From Brevibacillus brevis (lineage in GTDB: Bacteria > Bacillota > Bacilli > Brevibacillales > Brevibacillaceae), in assembly GCF_031583145.1 (NCBI RefSeq), contig NZ_CP134050.1, positions 4,267,501 through 4,331,500 on the forward strand: a DNA stretch of 64,000 nt. The letters are read 5' to 3'. The notes beneath the pieces are model-generated. The model saw only the letters and a list, made by a program, of their open reading frames with translations. It ran no database searches and was not told the DNA's origin. Position 1 is the stretch's first letter. The number at the start of each line of letters is the position of its first letter. The translations under genes and the position numbers were made by a program. Below are positions 55,665 through 64,000 of this stretch, in pieces.

Positions 55665-56309
55665 ATGCGTATTGAGGATATCATGCGAAAAGATGTCGTT
55701 ACGGTAAGCCCTTCCACTTCCATCGGGGAGGCGCTCCTCTTGCTCCGCGCCAATCGAATCAGGCATCTGCCGGTCCTGCAGGACGACCGTTTGGTAGGGA
55801 TCGTCTCGGACCGCGACTTGCGGGATGCCCTTCCCTCCCGCCTGCTCACGCACGAGGATGACGACACCATTTTGCACAAACCGGTCATTGCCATCATGCA
55901 AAAGCAAGTCGTCACCGCCCATCCGCTCGACTTCATCGAGGATGCGTCCGCCCACATGTACGAGCACAAAGTCGGCTCTCTTCCCGTCGTCGAAGGCGAG
56001 AAGCTGGTGGGGATGATCACGGAATCCGACCTGTTTTCCAGCCTCATCGAGCTCTTCGGAGTCAACAAGCCGAGCTCGCACATCGAGGTGGAAGTAGACG
56101 ACCGGGTGGGAGTGCTCGCCGAGGTCAGCCAAGTATTTCGGGAAGCCCATGTGAACGTGACCAGTGTGGTTGTCTTCCCGGGAAAAAAGCCCGCCAAGAA
56201 AAACCTGGTCTTTCGCGTACAGACGATCGACCCTCGCACCGTTCTCCATCTGCTCTCGGAAAGAGGGTTTCACGTCGTCGGCCCGACCGAAGGAGGGATC
56301 CCTCAGTGA
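55665..56309 (+). CDS. acuB: Acetoin utilization protein AcuB (CBS-CBS-ACT)
   Basis: 214 aa. Two CBS motifs (MRIEDIMRKDVVTVSPSTSI with HLPVLQDDRLVGIVSDRDLR, then IMQKQVVTAHPLDFIEDASA with SLPVVEGEKLVGMITESDLF) followed by an ACT domain (IEVEVDDRVGVLAEVSQVFR). Probably an adenine-nucleotide-sensing regulator of the AcuA/AcuC pair; its exact action is not known. AAGGAGG lies before ATG 55665. Its stop overlaps the acuC start (GTGA). Confidence 0.94.
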   Translation: MRIEDIMRKDVVTVSPSTSIGEALLLLRANRIRHLPVLQDDRLVGIVSDRDLRDALPSRLLTHEDDDTILHKPVIAIMQKQVVTAHPLDFIEDASAHMYEHKVGSLPVVEGEKLVGMITESDLFSSLIELFGVNKPSSHIEVEVDDRVGVLAEVSQVFREAHVNVTSVVVFPGKKPAKKNLVFRVQTIDPRTVLHLLSERGFHVVGPTEGGIPQ

Positions 56310-57484
56310 GCCGCAATTCTCGCCTGATCTACTCACCTGACTATACGAACTACTACTTTCACGACGAACATCCATTCAATCAGCGGCGCCTGCTGCTGGC
56401 GCACGATCTGATGAAGGCGTACGGCATTCTCGACGACGCGGACATTTTGCCCCCGCGAGAGGCCACGGACGAAGAACTGGCCATGGTGCACGACCAGCGC
56501 TACATCGAATTCGTACGCGAGCAGGGCCACAGCGAAGCGGAGCTCCCACTCGCTGCCAGCTACGGTCTCGGAACCGAGGATGTCCCCTGCTTCGCCCATA
56601 TGCACGAATCCGCTGCATTGATCGCGGGAGGAACGCTTCGAGCTGTCGAGGCTGTGATGAACGGCGAAGCCGAGCACGCTTTCAACCCGGCAGGTGGGCT
56701 GCACCACGCCTTTCGCGGACGAGCTTCGGGCTTTTGCATTTACAACGATTGCTCAGTGGCCATCGCCTACTTACGCAAAAAGTGGAACGCCCGCGTCTTG
56801 TACATCGATACGGACGCCCATCACGGAGACGGCGTCCAGTGGGCCTTTTACGACGATCCCAACGTCCTGACGGTCTCGATGCACGAAACGGGAAAATACC
56901 TGTTTCCCGGCACGGGGAATCTGACCGAACGAGGCGATGGAAGCGGTTACGGATACTGCGTGAACGTCCCCCTCGACGCCTTTACCGAAGACGACTCGTT
57001 CCTTGCCATCTACCAGGAGTTGGTGACGAAGCTGGCACGAGGCTTCAGGCCAGACGTCATTTTGACGCAAAACGGCTGCGATGCCCATGCGTTTGATCCG
57101 CTTACCCACCTGTCCTGTTCCATGAACATTTACGGAGCCATCCCGCGATTGGCGCACCAATTGGCACACGAACTGTGCGACGGGCGCTGGATCGCCGTAG
57201 GAGGTGGCGGCTACGATATTTGGAGAGTCGTTCCCCGCGCCTGGACCTTGTTGTGGAGTGAAATGACGGATCAGCCCCTGACTGACGGACCGCTTCCCGA
57301 ATCGTGGAGCGAAAAATGGCAGCCGCACTCCAGCCTCGTCCTGCCCAAGAGGCTGTACGATGAACCGTTCCCCGCCATCCCCCGCCGGGCTGAAATTACG
57401 CAAAAGAACCAAGTAACGCTGGAGCGGGCCCTGATGTACGCCCCGATCGGACCGGAGTCGTCTTCGAGCGGCTTGTCAGAATAG
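56306..57484 (+). CDS. acuC: Acetoin utilization protein AcuC, histone-deacetylase-like
   Basis: 392 aa zinc deacetylase of the classical HDAC fold. Catalytic and zinc residues are in VLYIDTDAHHGDGVQWAF, GGLHHAFRGRASGFCIYND and VILTQNGCDAHAFDPLTHL. It removes the acetyl group from AcsA in Bacillus. GTG start, overlapping the acuB stop by four bases, so coupled. Ends with its own terminator. Confidence 0.96.
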   Translation: MSRNSRLIYSPDYTNYYFHDEHPFNQRRLLLAHDLMKAYGILDDADILPPREATDEELAMVHDQRYIEFVREQGHSEAELPLAASYGLGTEDVPCFAHMHESAALIAGGTLRAVEAVMNGEAEHAFNPAGGLHHAFRGRASGFCIYNDCSVAIAYLRKKWNARVLYIDTDAHHGDGVQWAFYDDPNVLTVSMHETGKYLFPGTGNLTERGDGSGYGYCVNVPLDAFTEDDSFLAIYQELVTKLARGFRPDVILTQNGCDAHAFDPLTHLSCSMNIYGAIPRLAHQLAHELCDGRWIAVGGGGYDIWRVVPRAWTLLWSEMTDQPLTDGPLPESWSEKWQPHSSLVLPKRLYDEPFPAIPRRAEITQKNQVTLERALMYAPIGPESSSSGLSE

Positions 57485-57614: not shown

Positions 57615-58553
57615 TCAGGAGGAAAGGCTGCTCACCAGCTGTTCGAGCTCCGCCGGCTGGTAGCCCTTCACTGCTTTGTCGCCGACGACCGTCACCGGCA
57701 CGCCCATGAAGCCGAAGCGCTCCACTTCTTCTTGGTAAGTACGGCTCGTCATGACATCCCGCACCTCAAAAGGGATGCCTTTCGCGGTCAGCCACCCTTT
57801 CACCAAATTGCAATCGACGCAGTTTTGGGTGGAATAGACGATGACACCGGCTGCTTCGGTCGTCTGGCTCAGCATGTTGCGAACGATCGCAAAGGATCTT
57901 TCGGAGGCGAGCTTGGTGAATTCCACAAAGTTGACATGAGCGGATCCGTCCGCCTTATCCGACATGGAGCGAACGACTACAAACGGCACGTCATTCATCG
58001 CGCACACCTGTCCAACGGAAGCTCCCTCCATCTCGGTGCAATGGGCATCGAACTGCTTATGGAGCCACTGCACTTTTTCCCTGCTGGCGACGAACTGGTC
58101 GCCGGACAGAATGCGGCCGCTTACGACCTGCACATCCGCTTCCAGTTCCTTTCCCGCCTCGACCGCCTGGCGTATCAGTTCTTCGTCCGCTTTCCATACC
58201 CATTGGTCTGTAAACGGAATTTGCCCGGGAGCAAAACCGAGCGGCGATACATCGATGTCGTGCTGGATGCAGTCCGTCGAGACGACGATATCCCCGATGT
58301 TCAAATCCGGGTGGACAGCCCCCGCCACTCCCGTAAAAATGACCCGATCCACCTGGAACTGGTCGATCAAAATTTGCGTGGTAACCGCGGCGTTGACCTT
58401 TCCTACGCCTGATTTGCAGAGGACGACGGATTTTCCTTCCATCTCCCCTTCGTAATAGGTAATCCCCGCTTTGACGGTCTCTTTCGTCTGACCCATCGCT
58501 GCCAAGTAAAGCGCGATTTCCTCATCCATCGCGCCGATGATGCCGATGCGCAT
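57615..58553 (-). CDS. mtnN: MTA/SAH nucleosidase fused to a C-terminal glutaredoxin domain
   Basis: 312 aa. Residues 1-231 are a complete 5'-methylthioadenosine/S-adenosylhomocysteine nucleosidase: GIIGAMDEE (E11/E12), TEMEGASVG (M175, E176) and SMSDKAD (catalytic D199). After a short linker, residues 236-310 form a thioredoxin-fold glutaredoxin/NrdH-like domain with VIVYSTQNCVDC (CxxC, C245 and C248), the cis-proline motif FMGVPVTV and GYQPAELEQL. MtnN alone is about 231 aa, so the second domain is a true addition with no stop between. GGAGGGG precedes ATG 58553. Follows ccpA by 38 bases on the same strand. Confidence 0.94.
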   Translation of the reverse strand: MRIGIIGAMDEEIALYLAAMGQTKETVKAGITYYEGEMEGKSVVLCKSGVGKVNAAVTTQILIDQFQVDRVIFTGVAGAVHPDLNIGDIVVSTDCIQHDIDVSPLGFAPGQIPFTDQWVWKADEELIRQAVEAGKELEADVQVVSGRILSGDQFVASREKVQWLHKQFDAHCTEMEGASVGQVCAMNDVPFVVVRSMSDKADGSAHVNFVEFTKLASERSFAIVRNMLSQTTEAAGVIVYSTQNCVDCNLVKGWLTAKGIPFEVRDVMTSRTYQEEVERFGFMGVPVTVVGDKAVKGYQPAELEQLVSSLSS

Positions 58554-58591
58554 ACTACCCCTCCTCATGCTGGTCGATCTGTGTCCCGTTC

Positions 58592-59602
58592 TTACGCTTC
58601 TTCGGGCCTGGTGCTCTCTCGGTATTCAATTCGGTGCGGCAGCAGGACGACGTGTTCTTCCACGTGCTCGTTGTTCATGTATTTGGTCAACAGACGCATG
58701 GCCACCGCACCGATGTCGTACATCGGCTGTACGACGGACGTCAGGCGCGGGCGCACCATTTCGACCAGTCGGATATTGTCATGGCCGATCACTTCAATGT
58801 CTCCAGGCACGTTCAGGCCGGAATCCTGGATGGCGTGGATCGCTCCGATCGCCATCTCGTCATTGGCCGCAAAAATCGCCGTCGGCGGCTCCGGCAGCTG
58901 CAGAAACTGTTTCGTAAGCGAAAGGCCGGATTCATAGAAGAGGTTGCCGGTGGCCACAAGCTCGTCCACCAGCCCGATACCTGCGTCGATCAACGCTTTT
59001 TTATACCCTTCGAAGCGCATCAGTCCGCTCAGCGGATCGTTCAGCGGTCCGGTAATCATCGCGATCCGCTTGTGCCCGCGCTGGACCAGAGCTTCCGTCG
59101 CATCGTAGCCGGACTGGTAATGGTCGATGCTGACGGACGGCAACACATTGTCGGCGTCCCGCGTAGCCGCCAGTACAGTCGGAACCGATGTGCTCGTAAG
59201 CGCCTGCAGGTGGTCTTCCTTGATTTCCGCGCCCATGAAGAGCAGCCCGTCCACTTGTTTTTCCAAAAGCGTATTGATCAATTGCAATTCCTTTTCCATC
59301 CGTTGATCGGAGTTGCACAAAATAATGTTATACTTGTACATCGTCGCGATGTCCTCAATACCGCGAGCCAACTCAGAAAAAAACAAGCTGGAGATATCCG
59401 GAATGATGACACCGACCGTCGTTGTTTTTTTGCTGGCGAGTCCGCGCGCTACAGCGTTTGGCCGATACCCCAGCCGCTCGATGGCAGCCAATACTTTTTT
59501 CCGGGTCAAAGGTTTCACATTGGGATTTCCGTTCACTACCCGCGAAACCGTCGCCATCGAAACCCCCGCTTCTCTTGCCACGTCATAGATTGTTACCGGC
59601 AT
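58592..59602 (-). CDS. ccpA: Catabolite control protein A (LacI family)
   Basis: 336 aa. LacI HTH at residues 2-25 ([20 protein letters not shown]) with hinge helix around [16 protein letters not shown], then a periplasmic-binding-like core with HPr-Ser-P contact region near [18 protein letters not shown]. Neighbours acuC, aroG and ytxJ match the ccpA locus of Bacillus, which makes CcpA more likely than another LacI regulator. Start ATG 59602 follows GAGG; a GTG lies one codon upstream. Works with HPr phosphorylated on Ser46 at cre sites such as 38561. Confidence 0.93.
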
Positions 59603-59633
59603 CACACACCCTCACTTTCCCCATTTAATGGTT

Positions 59634-59718: not shown

Positions 59719-60027
59719 CTATTTCATCAGTTTGTTCATCGTTTTCAAAAGCTCGTCGATCACGTCGCTATCGCCTTGCTGAATGCGGTCGATGACGCAG
59801 CTTTTCATATGGCCTTCCAGAAGTATTTTGCCCACAGAGTTCAATGCTGACTGTACGGCAGCGATCTGGTTCAAGATGTCATCGCAGTACACGTCTTTCT
59901 CGACCATTCCCCGAATCCCCCGGATTTGTCCCTCTACACGGTTGAGACGGGATATGAGGTTGGACTTGATTTTGTCCGGTCGCATCGTCGCGCGTTCCGA
60001 CGAGCAGCATTGGTCGTGTTCATTCAT
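59719..60027 (-). CDS. csoR: CsoR-family copper-sensing repressor
   Basis: 102 aa all-helical DUF156 protein. The Cu(I) ligand set Cys-His-Cys is present: C48 in KDVYCDD, H73 and C77 in EGHMKSCVID. Family signature LNRVEGQIRGIRGMV is at residues 28-42. An extra CC pair at residues 7-8 is not part of the usual set. CsoR normally controls copZ-copA, but neither is adjacent, so its targets lie elsewhere or differ. GGGG precedes ATG 60027. The symbol is by family. Confidence 0.88.
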   Translation of the reverse strand: MNEHDQCCSSERATMRPDKIKSNLISRLNRVEGQIRGIRGMVEKDVYCDDILNQIAAVQSALNSVGKILLEGHMKSCVIDRIQQGDSDVIDELLKTMNKLMK

Positions 60028-60100
60028 CTGGCACATCCCCCTTCTGCCGTTACCAGCACGTACTCTTAGCTTACTTCGTCGATTCTCTTTCGTCAAATAA

Positions 60101-60137
60101 GGAAGGAGGCCTCCCCCGCATGCAGGAAAGCCTCCTT
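60101..60137 (-). terminator. Terminator of aroG
   Basis: Minus-strand GGAGGC / GCCTCC stem (60135-60130 and 60110-60105) extended by neighbouring bases, followed by TTCCTTATTT. Confidence 0.6.
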
Positions 60138-60154
60138 TGCCATCGCTTATCGAA

Positions 60155-61252
60155 TTAACCGCGAGCGGTAACCACTTCGCCTTTGTACAAGCCGGAAGCG
60201 AGCAGAGCATCCACGAAGCTGTTGAAATCCGGGATGTTCAGCTGCTGCTTCGCGTCGGACAACGCCACGTCCGGATCCGGGTGAACTTCGACCATAATTC
60301 CGTCCGAACCGACTGCGATCCCAGCTTTTGCCGTCGGCAGCAGCAGATCGCGGCGTCCGGTCGAGTGAGTGACGTCCACGAATACCGGCAGGTGAGTCTC
60401 TTGCTTGAGGAGCGGCACTGCCGAGATGTCGAGGGTGTTGCGGGTCGCTTTCTCGTACGTGCGGATACCGCGCTCACACAGCATGACCTGCGTGTTGCCT
60501 TCCGACAAGATGTATTCCGCTGCGTAAATGAACTCCTCGATCGTAGCCGAGAGGCCGCGTTTCAGCAAAATCGGCTTGTTGATGCGTCCGGCCGCTTTCA
60601 GCAGCTCGAAGTTCTGCATGTTGCGCGCGCCGATCTGGATGACGTCGATGTAGTTGCTGGCCATTTCCAGGTCAGCCGGCGTCACGATCTCGCTGATTGT
60701 CACGAGGTTGTACTCGTCACCGATGCGCTTCAGGATCTGCAAGCCTTCTTCGCCCAGACCCTGGAAGTCGTATGGAGAGGTGCGTGGCTTGTACGCTCCG
60801 CCGCGCAGGGTACGCAGACCGCGCTTCACGTGGTTTTCTGCCACTGCTTTTACTTGCTCGTAGCTCTCGACCGAGCAAGGGCCCGCGATCAGAATCGGAT
60901 TGCCGGCACCGAATTCCACGCCTTTTACGGAAATCACTGTATCTTCCGCCTGCTTTTTGCGGCTGACGAGCAGGACTTTCTTCTTGTCGTCGTTTTGCAG
61001 GTCGAGAGATACTTGGAAGATTTGCTTGAACAAATGGCGAACGGTATTGTCATTGAACGGACCTTTGTTGTTTTCTACCAAAAGGTTGAGCATTTGACGC
61101 TCGCGCTCCGGATCAAAGCGATTGCTGCCCTGCTTTTCCTTCTCCTTGCCCAGCTCCTGCACCAGCGTCGCACGCTTGTTAATCAACTCGAGAATCTGCA
61201 GATTGATTTCGTCGATCTGTTTGCGCATGGTATCGATCACATCGTGTGCCAT
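60155..61252 (-). CDS. aroG: Chorismate mutase / 3-deoxy-7-phosphoheptulonate synthase
   Basis: 365 aa bifunctional enzyme of the Bacillus type (called aroA in B. subtilis). Residues 1-90 are an AroQ chorismate mutase ([20 protein letters not shown], then [17 protein letters not shown]); residues 110-365 are a type I DAHP synthase with [32 protein letters not shown] and [14 protein letters not shown]. It condenses PEP and erythrose 4-phosphate; the mutase domain acts as a sensor for prephenate/chorismate feedback. GAGAGGAGAG precedes the ATG. Upstream is a strong promoter. Confidence 0.97.
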
Positions 61253-63744: not shown

Positions 63745-64000
63745 TTAGGCTTTCATGGCATCCGCAATGGCATCCTTGGTGATTTTCCAGTGGGAGGTGT
63801 GCCATTTGACTTGTCCTTCTTCCAGCAGGAAGATTTGCGGGGACTCATGCTTGATGGCGAACCGCTCTGCCACCGCATTGGATACCGGACGGTCTTCGAT
63901 TACGAAAATGACGGCCGAGGGCACTTCCTGCTCCTGCAAAAACGCTTGAAACTCCCCGTACGCCGCCGCGCTGATCGGGCAGGTGGTGCTGTGCTTGAAC
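63745..64000 (-). CDS. ytxJ: Bacillithiol-system redox protein YtxJ, C-terminal part
   Basis: The gene continues past the right edge; its last 84 codons and stop are visible. FKHSTTCPISAAAYGEFQAF carries the single active cysteine of the YtxJ (DUF2847) monothiol bacilliredoxins, and VIEDRPVSNAVAERFAIKHE with the cis-proline region ESPQIFLLEEGQ completes the thioredoxin fold. It is thought to remove bacillithiol from proteins. Its place beside aroG and ccpA matches Bacillus. Confidence 0.9.
   Translation of the reverse strand, partial: FKHSTTCPISAAAYGEFQAFLQEQEVPSAVIFVIEDRPVSNAVAERFAIKHESPQIFLLEEGQVKWHTSHWKITKDAIADAMKA

Follow-up and report, generated by a model that had tools for sequence, protein, structure and literature searches.

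MtnN, the MTA/SAH nucleosidase also known as Pfs, is a studied drug target that usually consists of a single domain of about 231 amino acids. Client enzymes that carry their own reductant are known from the peroxiredoxin-glutaredoxin hybrids, and NrdH proteins, which are relatives of glutaredoxins (Grx), usually receive their electrons from thioredoxin reductase. In the open-access literature, as judged by title or the start of the abstract, we found no paper on a fusion of MtnN with a glutaredoxin; one article that we considered as a possible link between SAH and bacillithiol mentions Paenibacillaceae and Thermoactinomycetaceae but, in its accessible portion, never Brevibacillus (PMC12719100).

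Such a fusion is encoded in Brevibacillus brevis, within a stretch of 64,000 nucleotides (contig NZ_CP134050.1, positions 4,267,501 to 4,331,500; hereafter, the window), to which the coordinates below refer unless a genome or locus is named. The gene lies on the minus strand at 57615..58553 and encodes 312 amino acids followed by a TGA stop; in the translation of the window, the frame is open from the ATG at 58553 to the TGA at 57617-57615, and the plus strand of the same interval contains a stop. A sequence-only reading had described one uninterrupted frame joining MtnN to a CxxC glutaredoxin at these positions and had given no strand; the positions are right, the strand is minus, and the translation together with two Pfam domains confirms the single frame, in which neither a stop nor a frameshift separates the two parts, as is likewise the case at 34 of 40 family loci. 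The AGGAGG six bases ahead of the ATG at 58553 speaks for this start rather than for the ATG at 58568, which is in the same frame. Before the glutaredoxin domain, by contrast, inspection of the DNA revealed nothing resembling a ribosome-binding site followed by a start codon in frame, so a separate Grx product is not expected.

The nucleosidase domain (residues 1-228, 57870..58553, minus strand) includes E12, M175, E176 and D199 along with four cysteines, C46, C95, C172 and C184, and is followed by a linker (residues 229-236, 57846..57869, minus strand) that varies in length and sequence among relatives and by the glutaredoxin domain (residues 237-312, 57618..57845, minus strand) with the active site C245-V-D-C248 and P286, the cis-proline by analogy. 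In Pfam terms, PNP_UDP_1 covers residues 2-228 (196.9 bits against a cut-off of 25.1), and Glutaredoxin, PF00462, covers residues 237-294 (45.2 against a gathering cut-off of 22.9), with the CxxC pair, C245 and C248, and the conserved proline, P286, all in place. The fusion protein also exceeds the cut-offs of both MtnN models, NF004079 of NCBIfam (287.9 bits against 169) and TIGR01704 (192.4 against 73.8); with the glutaredoxin included, its 312 residues depart from the usual single-domain length, so that membership in NF004079 rests on the score. The residues named in the sequence-only reading (E11/E12, M175/E176, D199, C245 and C248) all occur at the numbers given there and are invariant, as is the loop around P286, in the 20 of the 34 fused proteins that entered the residue alignment. 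The catalytic E12, E176 and D199, which we take to be the equivalents of E12, E174 and D197 of Escherichia coli MtnN, are invariant also in 20 other MtnN compared. The N-terminal part of the fusion protein is, by score and catalytic residues, a predicted MTA/SAH nucleosidase.

The fusion is typical of Brevibacillaceae. We compared 40 loci, comprising 26 same-genus genomes, 10 same-family genomes, three further genomes, all with the split form, and one named, fused locus. The fused gene is present in all 26 same-genus genomes, that of B. brevis included, and in seven of the 10 same-family genomes, which brings the count to 34 of 40 loci; in the remaining six, mtnN and grx are neighboring genes separated by 0-18 nucleotides. 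With fused loci coming from separate genomes (34/40), a sequencing artefact is ruled out, and so is chance read-through, given an omega near 0.05 in both parts. The record NZ_CP064048.1, titled Anoxybacillus sediminis, also carries the fusion; this title may be misassigned.

Both parts of the fused gene are under similar purifying selection. The 34 fused genes have a median omega of 0.050 in the MtnN part and 0.055 in the Grx part, values that were obtained from only those pairs with dS between 0.1 and 2 (148 and 191 of 561 pairs, respectively) and that are rough because dS, with medians of 1.50 and 1.34, comes close to saturation. Mean identities are 0.81 and 0.82, respectively, MtnN identities reach down to 64%, and both cysteines of the CxxC site are retained in all 34 proteins. 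The linker, measured from M227 to the residue before the IVYS motif, ranges from 9 to 19 residues, with alanine the most common; this variation does not suggest a fixed interface between MtnN and Grx. The pattern of selection and the linker are consistent with two functional domains connected by a flexible stretch.

The search of MtnN homologues for a C-terminal thioredoxin fold, which the sequence-only reading had called for, shows the fusion to be spread across Brevibacillaceae; two broad samples of genomes, at the thresholds applied, contained no example from any other family. A whole-protein search of 398 phylum-wide genomes matched 54 of them at E 1e-50, a threshold that would miss a fusion involving a more distant MtnN or another kind of Grx; among these, both domains were found in an open frame only in the window's own gene, and three alignments reached well into the Grx part but had to cross stops to do so (to residue 266 in G093, 273 in G464 and 245 in G768). 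A Grx profile search of 398 class-wide genomes matched at least 116 at E 1e-14, and no MtnN was detected at E 0.01 in the unusually long frames at 11 loci, namely, ten around matches outside the family, among the matches listed (nine from this search and one from another), and one frame of 190 residues. In eight of these 11 long-frame loci, we observed frames of about 420-450 residues that have a glutaredoxin domain at their start, with a CPYC, CNYC or CEYC site, and encode another protein, not MtnN; long frames of this kind occur at L183 (715-2001), L186 (2060-3343), L188 and L226-L231.

Directly upstream of the fusion gene, on the same minus strand, is a ccpA-like gene of the LacI family (58592..59605), and a consensus scan, which is weak evidence, detected nothing like a promoter or a terminator on that strand between the two. 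Farther upstream, also on the minus strand, are a small CsoR/RcnR-like regulator (59719-60210), located between aroA and ccpA and with homologues in 17 of 77 named Grx loci, and an aroA-like gene for DAHP synthase/chorismate mutase (60155..61252); the acuC-like gene on the plus strand (56306..57484) is convergent with the fusion gene. The names ccpA, aroA, acuC and CsoR/RcnR are those that we presume from recognition of the sequences. At the window edge, about 5 kb upstream of the fusion gene, lies the C-terminal part of ytxJ, the gene for the bacilliredoxin BrxC (63766..64000, minus strand), whose PF11009 match (G000:C1:4331266-4331562) continues past the end of the window, to 64062.

Outside the family, in a hand-picked outgroup of seven unfused loci, mtnN without Grx directly follows a ccpA-like gene in five cases, and in the other two, two genes lie between them. 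The ccpA-mtnN neighborhood is, therefore, probably older than the arrival of the Grx. In the tree of the MtnN part, the 40 family rows require two changes between the fused and the split states, and the fused rows are not united; a single fused clade, however, is not rejected by the AU test (p-AU 0.48; 34 rows against 13). This tree agrees with an operon pair having become fused, whether or not some of the fusions split again later, and the order of events may go either way. Altogether, the domain architecture is genuine, family-wide and new, although the enzyme itself is known.

The relatives of the glutaredoxin part present another facet of the story. The nearest profiles are the models for NrdH (TIGR02194, 59.5 bits against a cut-off of 85.75) and the YruB family (TIGR02196, 61.9 against 88.55), both of which the domain falls short of, and its solved relatives are of the NrdH type (4fiw, 4f2i and 1h75), along with glutaredoxin 7c10. 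The BrxC family, PF11009, has no match in the fusion protein, the site of which is CVDC rather than TCPIS. Of the 77 named Grx loci, 52 are outside Brevibacillaceae, including two weak ones (L165 and L166) and one with little upstream DNA (L154), and at 25 of the latter the Grx orthologue comes immediately after ytxJ, overlapping it by the four bases ATGA in all 25. For the neighbor at L031, the identity as ytxJ is supported by a TIGR04019 score of 116.6 against a cut-off of 77.25, and the other ytxJ neighbors are 67-98% identical to the L031 protein. Sixteen of the 25 records are from Paenibacillus and nine from Bacillus, Oceanobacillus, Halalkalibacter, Ectobacillus and Neobacillus. The remaining 27 of the 52 loci show no ytxJ beside the Grx and have either other neighbors or too little upstream DNA. 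Outside the fused set, 52 of 55 Grx sequences, four split Brevibacillus genes included, have the site C-x-[DE]-C, a count biased toward that site because the loci were found with patterns containing C[VIS][DE]C or the conserved-proline stretch.

The presence of YtxJ in the organism, to which the sequence-only reading had drawn attention, turns out to be more relevant than claimed there, given the 25 of 52 outside loci in which Grx comes directly after ytxJ. Because the domain is closest to the NrdH and YruB models in profile scores and to NrdH among solved structures, with thioredoxin reductase the usual donor of NrdH, the link to bacillithiol rests on gene order. A role as a bacillithiol-dependent oxidoreductase is, accordingly, putative, and it is the ytxJ linkage and the presence of bshC in all eight genomes tested that point to it. 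The C-x-[DE]-C glutaredoxins with a four-base overlap with ytxJ, for example, at L031 (5805-6376), L111 and L123, among others, are candidates for a further part or partner of the bacillithiol system in their own right; no description of a glutaredoxin of this kind was found in the accessible parts of the literature on the topic.

Some related glutaredoxins have other company. In loci of the Thermoactinomycetaceae type, the Grx gene has a UbiD-type gene as its divergently oriented neighbor, in four of the seven named loci L157-L163 (L157, L158, L160 and L161) as well as at L043 (4359-6476) and L192 (1274-3481); at L192, this neighbor encodes a menaquinone decarboxylase (TIGR03701, 516.5 against 495.9). 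In B. brevis itself, a second Grx match (G000:C1:1523641-1524492, L184) directly precedes a gene that is presumably peroxiredoxin-like.

On the nucleosidase side, the fusion protein is the only MtnN above the NCBIfam cut-off in 12 of the 13 family genomes tested, with a second one in G007; outside this test, G009 and G023 have a second MtnN-like match. LuxS is absent from seven of eight genomes, B. brevis included and G007 being the exception, and AhcY is present in all eight, so the conversion of SAH to homocysteine need not involve MtnN and LuxS and can proceed through AhcY; known pathways make it more likely that MtnN is needed for MTA and 5'-deoxyadenosine instead. A futalosine hydrolase in the B. 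brevis genome (324.1 against a cut-off of 213) and proteins of the MqnA/MqnD family in all eight genomes indicate the futalosine route to menaquinone, which includes radical-SAM steps. In G046 (G046:C4:207290-210184) and G038 (G038:C1:5179306-5182268), at most about 1 kb separates the ahcY match from that of bshC, and in the other genomes tested the two are within 3-7 kb.

Two of the nucleosidase cysteines stand out. In the MtnN lineage of 47 proteins (34 fused, six split and seven from the unfused outgroup), C172, two residues before the E174-M175-E176 stretch, is a cysteine in all 47, and C46, four residues before position 50, in 45, compared with six and none, respectively, of 20 hand-picked other MtnN, among which C184 recurs in 15 and C95 in three. 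Position 50 and the EME stretch we take to be the substrate site by comparison with E. coli MtnN. The two cysteines are, however, as common in the unfused outgroup (C46 in six of seven, C172 in seven of seven) as in the fused proteins, so they probably predate the fusion, the pair by itself is no argument for it, and the nucleosidase can work without an attached Grx.

There is a suggestive parallel in Deinococcus radiodurans, where AbxC, a homologue of BrxC, captured the SAH nucleosidase DR_1451; according to the accessible part of that report, DTT elution of the AbxC column released 25 proteins, AbxC itself included, and of three other AbxC-bound proteins examined further, DrOxyR was the sole one to be confirmed (PMC8301015). 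A review of S-bacillithiolated proteins lists AroA of Bacillus among them, and its accessible part contains none of the terms nucleosidase, MtnN and LuxS (PMC4360819); a homologue of AroA is encoded upstream of the fusion gene. Thiol-switch control of the nucleosidase, as proposed in the sequence-only reading, is possible in view of C46 and C172 near the active-site motifs and of the AbxC capture of DR_1451.

The fusion and its conservation, the relatives of both parts and the linkage to ytxJ in other lineages are established, and the scenario that we tentatively place first builds on them. The gene would yield one bifunctional protein, with the N-terminal part serving as the cell's nucleosidase for MTA and SAH, and presumably also for 5'-deoxyadenosine, and the C-terminal part acting, we infer, as a functional dithiol glutaredoxin; the Bacillales family to which it belongs appears to be produced together with BrxC in many lineages elsewhere. 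In Brevibacillaceae, a grx gene would have come to lie behind ccpA-mtnN, leading to the present coexistence of fused and separate forms. On its short, variable linker, the Grx could function as a tethered repair domain, with C46 and C172 beside the active-site motifs as the nearest clients, to be freed from disulfides or bacillithiol adducts with electrons drawn, presumably, from the bacillithiol or the thioredoxin system. In this capacity, a tethered, bacillithiol-linked Grx might keep the nucleosidase, as the nearest client, and perhaps other proteins, reduced. In favor of tethered repair are the scores of both domains over their cut-offs, the fusion at 34 of 40 loci, the similar omega values, the CxxC retained in 34 of 34, the ytxJ linkage in 25 of 52 loci, bshC in eight of eight genomes, C46 and C172, and the AbxC capture; against it are the occurrence of C46 and C172 in unfused proteins, the variable linker, the association of the Grx elsewhere with ytxJ and not with mtnN, the 27 of 52 loci without ytxJ, the NrdH/YruB-like scores and a follow-up of the AbxC capture that concerned proteins other than the nucleosidase, along with a review of S-bacillithiolation whose accessible part does not name the nucleosidase (PMC4360819).

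Almost as likely is an arrangement in which two independent enzymes, formerly operon neighbors, now share one chain, the Grx retaining a general duty related to bacillithiol and BrxC, the nucleosidase being its carrier, and the gain amounting to equal dosage or to nothing. The coexistence of split and fused forms in one family, with junctions of 0-18 nucleotides, the variability of the linker and the linkage of the Grx to ytxJ in other lineages all agree with such a loose union. Moreover, because in those fused genomes that have a second Grx match among the matches listed it is far weaker (64-76 compared to 134-151 bits; in B. brevis, 69.9 compared to 146.7), a general Grx duty would fall to the fused copy. 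What a loose union explains less readily is that the fused state has persisted at 34 of 40 loci although MtnN identity drops to as little as 64%, and that the partner has cysteines near its active site.

A further reading, which we regard as rather unlikely, is a self-resetting redox switch, whereby oxidation or bacillithiolation of C172 or C46 would stop the nucleosidase under oxidative stress, its accumulating substrates would restrain methyltransferases and radical-SAM enzymes, and the Grx, together with BrxC and bacillithiol, would restart it.

Still less probable is a metabolic channel, in which the Grx would feed electrons to an enzyme near MtnN, in sulfur salvage, the methyl cycle or among the radical-SAM enzymes that MtnN relieves of 5'-deoxyadenosine. 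A channel would be in line with the fact that 12 of 13 genomes have no second MtnN above the cut-off, with the presence of the futalosine pathway and with the related Grx by a UbiD-type gene in some Thermoactinomycetaceae-type loci, a menaquinone decarboxylase in the case of L192. Against it, that neighbor is divergent and absent from other loci, and we know of no reductive step directly after MtnN. In particular, the delivery of reducing power to sulfur salvage, another suggestion of the sequence-only reading, fares poorly in the light of the absence of LuxS from seven of eight genomes and the presence of AhcY in all eight. That the Grx domain is a relic being lost, or a regulatory tail free of redox chemistry, is highly improbable with both cysteines kept in 34 of 34 proteins, the P286 loop invariant in the 20 aligned and an omega of 0.055, about as low as that of the enzyme part; the one point in its favor is that Grx activity is a prediction from the sequence.

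The broader interest of the fusion lies in the position of MtnN as a node of methyl metabolism, which, with a thiol oxidoreductase attached in most members of the family, might come under redox control; if the redox switch were to operate, methylation and radical-SAM capacity would be coupled to the redox state of bacillithiol. The same data reveal a glutaredoxin gene overlapping that of BrxC in Paenibacillus and Bacillaceae records.

Compared with the known systems, the fusion protein shares with MtnN/Pfs (NF004079, TIGR01704) the whole domain, the catalytic residues and scores over both cut-offs but differs in the approximately 80 additional residues of the Grx and in C46 and C172, characteristic of the ccpA-linked lineage. 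The bifunctional MTA/SAH nucleosidase/phosphatase NF005213/PRK06698, to judge from what it is called and from the 459 positions of its model, likewise combines MtnN with a second, C-terminal domain; there, however, the second activity is a phosphatase, and with a cut-off of 768, the fusion protein reaches 187.2. Closest to the Grx part, among profiles and solved structures, are NrdH-redoxin, the YruB-family Grx and 7c10; the Grx part, unlike these, is below the NrdH and YruB cut-offs, has an acidic residue before the second cysteine and is joined to a nucleosidase. BrxC/YtxJ (PF11009, TIGR04019) is connected to the Grx part through gene order, being next to the Grx where this stands alone (25 of 52 loci) and about 5 kb upstream in B. 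brevis, but, with its monothiol TCPIS site, belongs to a different family. Finally, in the peroxiredoxin-glutaredoxin hybrids, the client is a thiol peroxidase, whereas in the fusion protein it would be a hydrolase without a redox step.
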